A stretch of DNA of 64,000 nt. Source: Acinetobacter sp. LoGeW2-3. GTDB lineage: Bacteria; Pseudomonadota; Gammaproteobacteria; Pseudomonadales; Moraxellaceae. Positions 33,460 through 38,223 of this stretch are shown one piece after another; position 1 is the stretch's first letter; the number at the start of each line of letters is the position of its first letter. A program made the translations under genes and the position numbers. The notes under the pieces were generated by a model. That model was not told the DNA's origin and ran no database searches. It saw nothing but the letters and a program-made list of their open reading frames with translations. The stretch spans positions 620,001-684,000 of the forward strand of contig NZ_CP024011.1 in assembly GCF_002688565.1 (NCBI RefSeq). Direction: 5' to 3'.

Positions 33460-35601
33460 ATGAAGACCATTCTATTAGTTCCGACTGGGGAAGGCGTTGG
33501 TTTAACGTCTGCATGCTTAGGCTTGATTTACGCACTGGAATGTCAAGGTGTGAAAGCCGGTTTCGTCAAACCTTTTTCTCAGGAAATCTCTGATACGGCA
33601 GATCGTACCACCACCCTGTATCGTCATGTCTCTAATGCAAAGACTGTTGAACCCATTAGCTTTAACACGATGGTACAACGTCTGAGTCAGGGCGAGCAGG
33701 ATGAACTTCTAGAAGATGCGGTACGTCTGCATCGTGAAATTGCCCGCAATCATGACCTGATCATTGTCGAAGGTCTGGTACCCAATGGTCGTGACAGCTT
33801 TGTAGATGAACTGAATGCTTCTCTGGCTCAAGCACTGGATGCCAAAGTGATTATCGTCAGCAATGCTGATATCCGTCATCCAGCTCAAACAGCAGAAAAA
33901 GTTGAAAACCAGATTCGTAATTTTGGTGGCGCAAGCTCAACACGCCTGTCCAGCATTCTATTCATGCGTACCAAAGGTTTACCTGAAGAATCTGCACAGA
34001 TCCCAGTGACCATTGATCCGGAACTACGTCTGACTGCTGAAACTGAACAGTTTGTACAAGCGATTCAGAAAACTCACCCATCTATCGGGTCTGAAAAGCT
34101 TCCAGTAATTGGCCTGGTGCCATTCAGTAAAACCCTGAGCGTGCCACGTATATCAGATCTGGCGGCACATATTTCTGCACTCTGGATTCATCAAGGTGAA
34201 GCTGCACAGCGCCGTGTTCAACACAGCAGCCTGATTGCTTCCAGCATTGAACATGAACTGCATAAATTTGTCGCGGGTGAACTGATCATCACTGCCTCTG
34301 ACCGTGTCGATGTGCTGCTAGCAAGTAGCCTGGCGAGCTGTAATGGTATTCCACTCGCTGGCTTAGTTCTGACTGAACAACATCAGCCAAATGAACAGGT
34401 GCTGGGTTTCTGCCAATCTGCAATTAAACATGGCTTGCCAATTTTACATACCCCATTAAGCACTTTTGAAACTGCTCAGAAGCTGGCAAATCTTGGTAAT
34501 GAAATTCCGGTGGATGATACAGAACGCGCCGATCAGGTGACCCGTTTTGTATCTAGTCACATCAATCCAGACTGGCTGATTCAGATGTTAAATGGCACTT
34601 ACAAGCCACGTCTGTCTCCTTCTGCGTTCCGTCATGAACTGGTACAAAAGTCGATTGCAGCAAAAAAACGGATTGTACTGCCTGAAGGTGATGAACCGCG
34701 TACCATCCAAGCCGCAGCGATCTGTCAGTCGCGTGGAATTGCACATTGTATTCTGCTGGCAAAACCTGATGATGTACTGGAAGTTGCCAAAGCACGTGGA
34801 ATTGAACTGCCAGAAGGTCTAGAAATTGTCGATCCTGACCTGATTCGCAACGACTATGTCGAGAAGATGGTCACACTGCGTAAAGGCAAACTAAATGAAC
34901 TCCAAGCTAAAGAGCAACTGCAAGATACGGTTGTTTTAGGCACAATGATGCTGGCGCTTGATCAGGTTGATGGTCTGGTATCTGGTGCAGTGCATACCAC
35001 TGCAAATACTGTGCGTCCAGCCTTCCAGCTGATTAAGACAGCGCCAGATTATTCACTGGTGTCTTCAGTATTCTTTATGCTGTTGCCAGATGAAGTGTAT
35101 GTCTATGGTGACTGTGCAATTAATCCAGATCCGGATGCCGCGCAACTGGCAGAAATTGCGATCCAGTCTGCGGATTCAGCAAAAGCCTTTGGTATCGATC
35201 CACGTATTGCTATGATCTCTTACTCAACAGGTACTTCAGGTGCCGGTGCTGATGTAGAGAAAGTCGCTGAAGCCACCCGTATTGCCAAAGAACGTCGTCC
35301 TGACCTATTGATTGATGGTCCATTACAATATGATGCTGCTTCTGTTGAAAGCGTTGGTCGTCAAAAAGCACCAGATTCACAAGTGGCTGGTCGTGCCAAT
35401 GTCTTCATCTTCCCGGATCTGAATACAGGTAACACCACGTATAAAGCGGTACAACGTGCTGCCAATGTGGTAAGTGTTGGTCCAATGCTGCAAGGCCTGA
35501 ACAAGCCAGTAAATGACTTGTCACGTGGTGCTCTAGTCGATGACATCGTGTTTACGATTGCGTTAACTGCGATTCAGGCGGATCAACAAGCAGCTCAATA
35601 A
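33460..35601 (+). CDS. pta: Phosphate acetyltransferase, long form
   Basis: Interconverts acetyl-CoA and acetyl phosphate. The 713-residue product is the long two-part type. An N-terminal P-loop/BioD-like and DRTGG regulatory region (LLVPTGEGVGLTSACLGLIYALE) is followed, after about residue 385, by the catalytic PTA domain with RIVLPEGDEPRTIQAAAIC, GLVSGAVHTTANTVRPAFQLI, MISYSTGTSGAGADVEKV and FPDLNTGNTTYKAVQRAA. Cotranscribed with ackA and closed by a terminator. Confidence 0.97.
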   Translation: MKTILLVPTGEGVGLTSACLGLIYALECQGVKAGFVKPFSQEISDTADRTTTLYRHVSNAKTVEPISFNTMVQRLSQGEQDELLEDAVRLHREIARNHDLIIVEGLVPNGRDSFVDELNASLAQALDAKVIIVSNADIRHPAQTAEKVENQIRNFGGASSTRLSSILFMRTKGLPEESAQIPVTIDPELRLTAETEQFVQAIQKTHPSIGSEKLPVIGLVPFSKTLSVPRISDLAAHISALWIHQGEAAQRRVQHSSLIASSIEHELHKFVAGELIITASDRVDVLLASSLASCNGIPLAGLVLTEQHQPNEQVLGFCQSAIKHGLPILHTPLSTFETAQKLANLGNEIPVDDTERADQVTRFVSSHINPDWLIQMLNGTYKPRLSPSAFRHELVQKSIAAKKRIVLPEGDEPRTIQAAAICQSRGIAHCILLAKPDDVLEVAKARGIELPEGLEIVDPDLIRNDYVEKMVTLRKGKLNELQAKEQLQDTVVLGTMMLALDQVDGLVSGAVHTTANTVRPAFQLIKTAPDYSLVSSVFFMLLPDEVYVYGDCAINPDPDAAQLAEIAIQSADSAKAFGIDPRIAMISYSTGTSGAGADVEKVAEATRIAKERRPDLLIDGPLQYDAASVESVGRQKAPDSQVAGRANVFIFPDLNTGNTTYKAVQRAANVVSVGPMLQGLNKPVNDLSRGALVDDIVFTIALTAIQADQQAAQ

Positions 35602-35795: not shown

Positions 35796-36035
35796 TTACA
35801 TGGTTGTCCATTCATTACGGACATCATCTGCCGCTTTATTCAAAATTACCTGATCACCTTTGACTTCACTGACCCAGCTGAGTGGAATCAGATGGTGTTC
35901 ATTATTTTCATCGTCACTTCTTGTTAATTTAATTGAATCTTGGCCTTCTAAATGGTCCACTTTTCCAACTTGTGTCCCGTCTGAAGCAATTACTGATGCA
36001 TGTTCCTTGATGTCACTTGGATTTACTGTAGTCAT
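35796..36035 (-). CDS. DUF2171 family protein
   Basis: A 79-residue soluble protein of the DUF2171/PRC-barrel-like type: DIKEHASVIASDGTQVGKVDHLEGQDSIKLTR, then HHLIPLSWVSEVKGDQVILNKAADDV. Members are often stress- or desiccation-associated, but no biochemical role is established. It is acidic, has no signal peptide and is a single gene. Confidence 0.85.
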   Translation of the reverse strand: MTTVNPSDIKEHASVIASDGTQVGKVDHLEGQDSIKLTRSDDENNEHHLIPLSWVSEVKGDQVILNKAADDVRNEWTTM

Positions 36036-36262
36036 TACAATTGCCCTATTATTAATAGAAGTTGAGAGAAATCAGTCTAGGCAATAAAAAATCGGCTGTG
36101 TGTAAGGGTTATCAGGCTTTGAGTATTACTGGGTTAATAATGTAATGATAAAAATACAGTGTGTTTCAACAAGTGAAGAGCGTAGCGGAGTGATGTGAAG
36201 ATTTGGAATTTGGAGGGCTATTTAGGAAAATATGAGAATAATTTTTATAAAATTTTAGGCAT
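36036..36262. other. Gap upstream of the DUF2171 gene
   Basis: About 230 bp with the likely promoter of the DUF2171 gene and the trailer of the small peptide gene. I see no further feature. Confidence 0.4.
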
Positions 36263-36298
36263 AAAAAAAGAAGATAAAGCGTTAGGCTTGATCTTCTT
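36263..36298 (-). terminator. Terminator overlapping the end of the 29-codon gene
   Basis: Read on the minus strand, AAGAAGAT pairs with ATCTTCTT and AAGC with GCTT around loop CTAAC, followed by a T run. The left arm is the last sense codons and the loop contains the stop codon. Confidence 0.8.
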
Positions 36299-36371
36299 GC
36301 TTACCGTAGAACCATGTTGCTGCGATGTATGCAGTGAAGCCGATAACCATTAGAACAACTGAAGCTGACAT
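36282..36371 (-). CDS. 29-residue single-pass membrane peptide
   Basis: The frame starts at ATG 36371 and reads MSASVVLMVIGFTAYIAATW followed by FYGKQEDQA. It has one hydrophobic helix (residues 4-22) and a short polar C-terminus, and is too short for default ORF calling. Support for a real gene: an SD-like GAGAG about 9 nt upstream, a near-perfect Pho box and -10 element further up (36400-36433), and an intrinsic terminator overlapping the stop. It looks like a phosphate-starvation-induced membrane microprotein. It does not resemble KdpF, CydX or MetS closely enough to name. Confidence 0.65.
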   Translation of the reverse strand: MSASVVLMVIGFTAYIAATWFYGKQEDQA

Positions 36372-36399
36372 ATTTTCTATCTCTCGTTTCGATGAGTGC

Positions 36400-36433
36400 A
36401 TTATGCGAAAGTTTTATGACAGTTATATGACAA
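36400..36433 (-). promoter_or_regulatory. Pho box and -10 element of the 29-residue peptide gene
   Basis: On the minus strand 36433-36416 reads TTGTCATATAACTGTCAT, two TGTCAT half-sites 11 bp apart. This differs from the E. coli PhoB consensus CTGTCATAAAWCTGTCAY at one or two positions. CATAAT follows after 10 bp (36405-36400), the geometry of PhoB-activated promoters where the box replaces the -35. Start codon 36371 lies about 22 nt after the predicted transcription start. Confidence 0.65.
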
Positions 36434-36511
36434 TATGCAGAGTATTGTAATTTTTATAATATATTTTAAATTCAATAATTTAATAAAATAAATGAAGATT
36501 TTTTAAGTTTT

Positions 36512-36562
36512 ATGACATGAAATATGACAGTCATTATGACAATTTTCAATCAAAACATGACA
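36512..36562. promoter_or_regulatory. Array of ATGACA/TGTCAT half-sites upstream of fumarase
   Basis: ATGACA occurs at 36512, 36524, 36536 and 36557. The first three are exactly 12 bp apart. They extend the pair at 36416/36427 and suggest several bound dimers of an OmpR/PhoB-type regulator. The array is about 90 bp upstream of the fumarase -10. Confidence 0.45.
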
Positions 36563-36651
36563 CGATTGATTCTACTTATACACAGATAAATGAGTATTAA
36601 ACTTTCGCCCAAAAGCCCCGCAAAACGTCCCACAACTTTTGTGTTTTGTCA

Positions 36652-36657
36652 TATAAT
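36652..36657 (+). promoter_or_regulatory. Candidate -10 element of fumarase
   Basis: A perfect TATAAT lies 40 bp before the fumarase ATG. No good -35 is found 17 bp upstream, which would fit activator dependence. Confidence 0.45.
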
Positions 36658-36696
36658 TTAGCCCGCTAGCTATCAGCCCGCTCAAGAGATTTTTGT

Positions 36697-38223
36697 ATGA
36701 CAACTATTATCAAGCAAGATGACTTGATCACATCGGTTAAAGATGCGCTTCAGTTCATTTCTTACTATCACCCACAGGACTTCATCCAGGCGATGAGTCG
36801 TGCGTATGACCGTGAAGAAAACAAAGCGGCTAAAGATGCGATCGCGCAAATCTTAATTAACTCTCGTATGTGTGCAGAAGGCCATCGCCCGATCTGCCAG
36901 GATACCGGTATCGTAAACGTATTCGTTGAAGTGGGCATGGACGTTAAATTTGATTTAACGATGAGCTTAGACGATGCGATCAACGAAGGTGTACGTCAAG
37001 GTTACCTAGAGAACTCTAACGTACTGCGTGCCTCTGTACTTGCTGACCCTGCGTTCGGTCGTAAGAACACTAAAGACAATACACCTGCTGTGATCTATCA
37101 CAAACTTGTTCCAGGTAACAAAGTTGACATTACTGTTGCAGCGAAAGGTGGCGGTTCAGAAAACAAATCTAAACTGGCAATGTTAAACCCATCTGACTCA
37201 ATCGTGGACTGGGTACTGAAAACTGTTCCAACAATGGGTGCAGGCTGGTGTCCTCCTGGTATGCTGGGTATCGGTATTGGTGGTACTGCTGAAAAAGCCA
37301 TGATGCTTGCAAAAGAAGCATTGATGGAAGAGCTGGACATGGACGAACTTCTTCATCGTGGTCCGCAAAGCAAACTTGAAGAACTTCGTATTGAAATCTT
37401 CGAGAAAGTAAATGCCCTAGGTATTGGTGCACAAGGTCTTGGCGGTTTAACAACTGTTCTAGACATCAAAATCAAAGATTACCCATGTCACGCTGCTGGT
37501 AAACCAGTCGGTATGATTCCGAACTGTGCTGCAACTCGTCACGCACATTTCACGCTTGATGGTTCTGGCGTTGCTCACATCATGGCACCGAAACTTGAAG
37601 ACTATCCAGAAGTCACTTGGGATTCATCTTCTTCTAAACGTGTTGACCTCGACAACATCACGCAAGAAGAAATGAATTCTTGGAAGCCAGGTGATACGCT
37701 GCTTCTGAACGGTACAATCTATACTGGCCGTGATGCTGCGCACAAACGTATGGTTGACATGCTGAACAATGGTGAAGAACTTCCAGTTGATCTGAAAGGC
37801 AAATTCATCTACTACGTAGGCCCTGTAGATCCTGTTGGCGACGAAGTCGTTGGTCCTGCTGGTCCGACAACGGCTACACGTATGGATAAATTTACACGTC
37901 AAGTGCTTGAAGCAACTGGCATGTTCGGCATGATCGGTAAAGCAGACCGTGGTCCTGCTGCCGTTGAAGCAATTAAAGACAACAAAGCAACTTACCTGAT
38001 GGCTGTTGGCGGTGCTGCTTACCTAGTATCTAAAGCAATCCGTGAAGCTGAAGTTGTGGCATTCGCTGATCTTGGTATGGAAGCAATTTACAAGTTTGTT
38101 GTAAAAGATATGCCTGTATCTGTAGCGGTTGACGTAAACGGTACTTCTGTACATGCGACTGCACCAAAAATCTGGCAAGCGAAGATTGGCAAGATTCCAG
38201 TAGTTGATGCTGCTGCAGGCTAA
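36697..38223 (+). CDS. fumA: Fumarate hydratase, class I (4Fe-4S)
   Basis: TCA-cycle enzyme interconverting fumarate and malate; oxygen-sensitive iron-sulfur type. The 508-residue product has the cluster cysteines in RPICQDTGIV (Cys67), AGWCPPGM and MIPNCAATRHAHF. The C-terminal catalytic domain has GPVDPVGDEVVGPAGPTTATRMDKF. It is a monocistronic gene with TATAAT upstream. Because its cluster needs iron, expression in many bacteria is iron- and redox-controlled; here only the TGTCAT array is visible. Confidence 0.96.
   Translation: MTTIIKQDDLITSVKDALQFISYYHPQDFIQAMSRAYDREENKAAKDAIAQILINSRMCAEGHRPICQDTGIVNVFVEVGMDVKFDLTMSLDDAINEGVRQGYLENSNVLRASVLADPAFGRKNTKDNTPAVIYHKLVPGNKVDITVAAKGGGSENKSKLAMLNPSDSIVDWVLKTVPTMGAGWCPPGMLGIGIGGTAEKAMMLAKEALMEELDMDELLHRGPQSKLEELRIEIFEKVNALGIGAQGLGGLTTVLDIKIKDYPCHAAGKPVGMIPNCAATRHAHFTLDGSGVAHIMAPKLEDYPEVTWDSSSSKRVDLDNITQEEMNSWKPGDTLLLNGTIYTGRDAAHKRMVDMLNNGEELPVDLKGKFIYYVGPVDPVGDEVVGPAGPTTATRMDKFTRQVLEATGMFGMIGKADRGPAAVEAIKDNKATYLMAVGGAAYLVSKAIREAEVVAFADLGMEAIYKFVVKDMPVSVAVDVNGTSVHATAPKIWQAKIGKIPVVDAAAG

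Follow-up and report, generated by a model that had tools for sequence, protein, structure and literature searches.

A putative PhoB-controlled gene for a 29-residue membrane peptide, conserved together with its Pho box in part of the genus Acinetobacter

The window analyzed here, a 64,000 nt stretch of Acinetobacter sp. LoGeW2-3 (contig NZ_CP024011.1, positions 620,001 to 684,000), carries a compact minus-strand unit between two plus-strand genes which, by their sequences, we take to be pta (phosphate acetyltransferase, 33460..35601) and a class I fumarase gene (36697..38223). The fumarase gene is the divergent neighbor of the unit, while pta, on the other side, lies within the fetched 1.5 kb in some relatives only. 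The unit opens with a Pho box, TTGTCATATAACTGTCAT (36416..36433), composed of two 11-bp direct repeats whose half-sites (36432-36427 and 36421-36416) start 11 bp apart. After a spacer of ten bases, AAAACTTTCG, follows a −10 element, CATAAT (36400..36405), and then an SD-like GAGAG (36381..36385), located 9 nt ahead of an ATG; by eye, a GAG-containing sequence is found at a comparable place in many relatives. The frame itself (36282..36371) runs from the ATG at 36371 to a TAA at 36284-36282, and its 29 codons encode MSASVVLMVIGFTAYIAATWFYGKQEDQA with one hydrophobic stretch. An intrinsic terminator (36263..36298) overlaps its end: the hairpin (36298-36268; folding energy −11.9 kcal/mol) has its 5′ arm within the last codons and the stop codon in its loop, and the T-tail reaches 36263. 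This order of parts had been given in a preliminary description of the locus, and was confirmed to the base.

Neither signal appeared in the output of simple scans of the window, the terminator probably because of its 1x1 mismatch and the promoter because it has no −35 hexamer. A longer frame of 39 codons begins inside the −10 element, and relatives conserve the later ATG as the start. Three further TGTCAT motifs lie upstream of the Pho box (36512..36541, minus strand), at steps of 12 bp rather than 11 bp, and the count of such extra half-sites differs among relatives. Just past the terminator, short tandem repeats were seen in many relatives, of the TTGAAGATT type in L011-L015, L030, L031, L033 and L034, and of other units in L010, L027, L028 and L032.

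Searching with the peptide found relatives in 62 of 149 Acinetobacter genomes (E ≤1.4e-3), and a profile search recovered an identical set (≤1.8e-9 in every genome), with the next genome at 0.028. Named carriers (52 loci) include A. lwoffii, A. schindleri, A. indicus, A. bouvetii, A. variabilis and A. tandoii. In one further genome (G046, L107) the frame begins but is cut short by an assembly gap. The stretch preceding the fumarase gene was read in 145 of the 147 genomes having that gene, and for the remaining two (G077 and G032) the frame’s own locus was read instead. At these 145 fumarase loci the frame is present in 57, cut by the gap in one (L107), about 7 kb away in one (G084) and lacking in 86. 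No N occurs in the scanned stretch of any of the 86 frame-less loci, one of which (L129) offers only 401 bp upstream, covering the box and not the whole frame. Relatives at other loci, each with Pho half-sites, were found in four genomes. Those of G077 and G032 sit near a gene presumed from its sequence to be glnA and have a box matching 12/12 half-site bases plus CATAAT; the copies in G032 are partial only, flanking a run of N. The copy of G132 adjoins a gene that we take to encode a LysR protein, and that of G143 lies in very similar DNA; both genomes are counted among the 86, and their copies have three half-sites (best pair 11/12) and no clear −10. A second, truncated copy of the frame, with neither start codon nor Pho box, was seen in G074 (L297, contig C8).

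Significant matches were confined to Acinetobacter. In a family sample of 249 genomes including Acinetobacter, all 37 genomes matched at E ≤8.2e-11 belonged to this genus, and outside it nothing significant was found (best E 0.006); in an order sample of 390 genomes, again including Acinetobacter, the best match outside the genus (0.0028, not significant) lay inside a 481-codon frame. The E 0.006 match (L298, FIAATISYG, from G266 of another genus of the family) has neither the invariant W nor an in-frame ATG before it, nor a TGTCAT in the 120 bases inspected; for these reasons, and since a sample of 249 genomes should yield about 1.5 matches with such an E-value, it was not counted, being either chance or a distant relic. 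A weak match that recurs in many genomes, within a membrane protein about 150 aa long, was likewise judged to be chance; its own-genome copy (L300), the sole copy inspected, has 30% identity over residues 5-27. The plasmids and phages searched held no match to the peptide.

Across these relatives the frame bears the marks of a coding sequence. The peptides are 24-30 residues long, and their lengths differ by whole codons at the two ends only. For the 19-codon core, dN/dS was 0.28 (mean dN 0.238, mean dS 0.838), calculated from 48 distinct core sequences, of which 783 of 1128 pairs, not independent of each other, gave usable distances. The two shifted frames, with stop-containing codons excluded, gave 1.07 (1096 pairs) and 1.30 (994 pairs). 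The comparison indicates that the core is under purifying selection, and strongly supports translation of the frame. An alignment of 23 members shows no variation at F, W, Y and G; one-sidedness of conservation along the helix was marginal (permutation p about 0.03). The best 19-residue hydropathy of the window peptide is 1.86, and this copy has no positive charge within the helix. Searches for known relatives were negative: the window peptide matched no Pfam or NCBIfam family, the 23 members gave four weak Pfam matches (best E 0.012), none of them DUF1127, and the alignment of relatives matched nothing among solved structures.

The C-terminal tail has to be read differently. The codons of the conserved tail (QKEDQA / KQEDQA) that follow YG have at least seven nucleotides paired in the 5′ arm of the hairpin in 50 of 51 distinct sequences (the exception being L090), and the K, E and D codons show hardly any variation at their third positions, in contrast to most of the core. 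Where the stem is shifted (L036 and L141) the tail is shorter, as it is in L039, L090 and L133, and in G077 the peptide ends in FYGKS, the tail being absent and a separate hairpin lying downstream (by eye). The conserved tail is thus largely an imprint of the terminator stem, and being mostly fixed in this way it is poor evidence for a protein function of KQEDQA. Of the hydrophobic helix plus KQEDQA recognized previously, the hydrophobic stretch stands, while KQEDQA is for the most part set by the terminator, and copies in which the two do not overlap lack it.

The Pho box goes together with the frame. Among the 57 carriers at the fumarase locus, 12/12 half-site bases matched in 50, 11/12 in six and 9/12 in one (L015), so that the box reached at least 11/12 at 56 of 57 loci with the frame versus 0 of 86 without it, the latter never exceeding 10 (Fisher p 2e-39, kinship ignored; L107, where the frame is cut by N, and L158 of G084 are excluded from this count). 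In G084, the copy about 7 kb off (L026) has a 12/12 box. The −10 keeps its spacing in all 57 carriers (CATAAT in 54, GATAAT in 3). In the 56 distinct promoter sequences (83 bases), the sole well conserved stretch is TTGTCATA.A..TGTCATAaAaCTTT..CATAAT, plus two single A’s. Taken alone, the box is weak evidence, because TGTCATN5TGTCAT with at most one mismatch occurs 27 times in the own genome against 19 for a reversed control (the exact pattern occurs twice).

Losses at the locus tell the same story of a unit. A tree of 65 fumarase sequences (a single gene, midpoint rooted, with 23 of 62 inner branches well supported) needs at least seven changes in frame presence, and with the frame lacking at 86 of 145 fumarase loci this indicates that the peptide is not essential. 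A frame broken between conserved flanks, which the preliminary description had regarded as speaking against a functional peptide, does occur: both G037 (L062) and G081 (L068) have lost the start codon and carry a frameshift. But the promoter has changed along with it, the box being 8/12 and the −10 TGTAAT in G037, and the box 10/12 and the −10 CATCAT in G081, so these remnants are read as the loss of a unit. Promoter and frame, as far as these remnants tell, decay together, though G081 retains one whole half-site. In G134 the whole unit is deleted.

To place the box within the phosphate response, a motif was derived from the 11 distinct box sequences present at 55 of the 57 loci (leaving out L015 and the own locus, whose box is nevertheless identical to others) and applied to 30 selected genomes, 15 of them carriers and 15 lacking the frame. 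A site was found upstream of pstS, pit and phoB in 30/30 genomes each, with lowest scores of 10.6, 23.5 and 12.1, respectively, against 95% points of 7.7-7.8 and 99% points of 10.4-11.0 in letter-shuffled controls; the weakest pstS site is just below its 99% point, and for phoB the top-scoring site of three genomes is 180-258 bp away and may not be that gene’s own. The frame’s box gave the top score among the sites examined in the own genome (26.8), ahead of pit (23.8), the porin-pstS site (21.7), pstS (12.1) and phoB (12.1). At pstS, the same 10-bp step as at the frame leads to a −10-like CAAAAT (by eye). The phoB gene of this genome matches TIGR02154 above cut-off (G000:C1:1277910-1278584), and a frame that we take to be phoR-like follows it. 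The pit box, TTGTCATATAATTGT(C/A)A(C/T), is near-invariant in 30/30 genomes (L351-L380; G000:C1:192010 (−) in the own genome) and encloses TATAAT; Pit may therefore be under PhoB control, perhaps by repression. The strong Pho-like site before the porin-pstS pair (L268, G000:C1:2703124 (−)) points away from the porin-like gene directly preceding pstS. Judged by this distribution, the box is the Pho box of the genus; the E. coli consensus, CTGTCATNNNNCTGTCAT, is described as having been applied to olsB of A. baumannii (PMC11828411).

Taken together, the locus is best explained, with a probability of about 0.75, as a stand-alone phosphate-starvation gene for a PhoB-induced, single-span inner-membrane peptide acting in trans. 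Control by PhoB, earlier deduced from the E. coli box geometry, is strongly supported at the sequence level by a box conserved with the frame and a motif shared with pstS, pit and phoB, and the earlier supposition that the peptide is made likewise survives, the frame being conserved and its core constrained. Its membrane position and its target are what we infer. At low phosphate, phosphorylated PhoB would bind the Pho box and recruit RNA polymerase to CATAAT, giving a transcript of roughly 130-140 nt that would end at the terminator overlapping the frame’s end. Translation would yield the 29-residue peptide, predicted to span the inner membrane once and, because it has no operon partner, to act in trans. 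The peptide would most likely pack against the membrane-spanning helices of a larger protein that serves the phosphate response in the inner membrane, altering that protein’s activity or stability; the first-ranked targets are the phosphate transporters (Pit or Pst) and the sensor PhoR.

More specific versions of this reading are tentative. One possible form is an effector that clamps a phosphate transporter or PhoR with one conserved face of its helix (F, I, T, W, Y, G) and has a polar tail written by the terminator, an RNA-level need thereby shaping the protein’s end, with significant matches only in Acinetobacter. In such a form translation might even be coupled to termination, given that the stop codon sits in the hairpin loop. 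A sensor kinase as partner, the peptide feeding back on PhoR or linking PhoB to another kinase, is a conceivable though doubtful refinement. It has precedents in YoaI acting with EnvZ-OmpR (PMC11853020) and in DUF1127 proteins with PhoR (PMC12501420), and a PhoB-induced peptide would be well placed for feedback. Somewhat less probable still is inhibition or stabilization of Pit, for which the near-invariant Pho box at pit speaks, as does the 31-aa MgtS of E. coli, thought to inhibit PitA (PMC10710835). The distribution speaks against it: Pit is above its cut-off in 144 of 149 genomes, many of them lacking the peptide, so its presence does not track that of the peptide, and the sister genomes G132 and G143 have no Pit above the family cut-off and yet carry the most diverged peptide. 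For either target, residues separating carriers from non-carriers were sought in PhoR, Pit and PstS (15 versus 15 genomes), and none was found beyond 60 label shuffles, a weak counter-argument in the case of the transporters.

Explanations of another kind were also weighed. That the transcript is a PhoB-induced regulatory small RNA, with the frame incidental or secondary, would agree with its size and clear terminator, and with the near-constant third positions of the K, E and D codons that the stem requires; it is nonetheless improbable, as outside the terminator this is the sole frame in which most changes are synonymous (0.28 versus 1.07 and 1.30), the length differences among copies always amount to whole codons at either end, and no Rfam family matches the window at gathering scores. 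We consider a stress-induced hydrophobic peptide that depolarizes the membrane, like a type I toxin, to be more improbable again: the size, hydrophobicity and stand-alone gene would suit it, but the invariant F, W, Y and G suggest a specific contact, the window copy has no positive charge within its helix, and no antitoxin RNA was recognized by Rfam or by a simple scan for plus-strand promoter-like sites in 36000-36700. Finally, the excess of one-mismatch Pho-like patterns in the own genome over the control is small enough to raise the thought of a fortuitous frame behind a fortuitous box. Chance is ruled out for practical purposes because the box co-occurs with a conserved frame across species, and the coding bias and the peptides with Pho half-sites at other loci speak against it as well.

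Small single-span subunits of near 30 aa, such as KdpF and CydX, are encoded beside their partner subunits; the genes adjacent to the frame in the window, G132, G077 and G032, going by the names we presume for them, are unlike these in not being membrane-complex subunits. Closer in kind is YoaI of E. coli (34 aa), a small hydrophobic protein whose gene is PhoB-activated according to ChIP-seq and RNA-seq (PMC10294691; also PMC11853020) and which is reported to activate EnvZ-OmpR (PMC11853020). It resembles the window peptide in being small and hydrophobic and in its activation by PhoB, which is predicted for the peptide, and both genes, YoaI in K-12 and the frame in the window, lie on the strand opposite their two neighbors. 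It differs in that the two do not align at E up to 100, and in its neighbors. MgtS is comparable as a small protein of a nutrient-limitation response with a phosphate transporter as one target (it acts on PitA and MgtA; PMC10710835), but is tied to magnesium depletion. DUF1127 small proteins, often <50 aa, are reported to bind PhoR and are tied to phosphate control (PMC12501420), whereas the Pfam searches set the present peptides apart from them. Among the papers listed by full-text searches on Acinetobacter small membrane proteins and the Pho regulon, no title or abstract describes the gene, and at that level the family appears to be new, although its kind, a membrane microprotein of a stress regulon, is known.

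Annotation readily overlooks small membrane proteins, and few of them have been linked to phosphate control. The overlap described here also points to a trap when conserved tails of microproteins are taken as functional, since what looks like protein conservation can come from a terminator that runs across the stop codon. The gene, apparently unnamed, adds a concrete candidate to the phosphate-starvation response, and its family offers clear coding constraint, a recognizable promoter, natural losses and decayed remnants.
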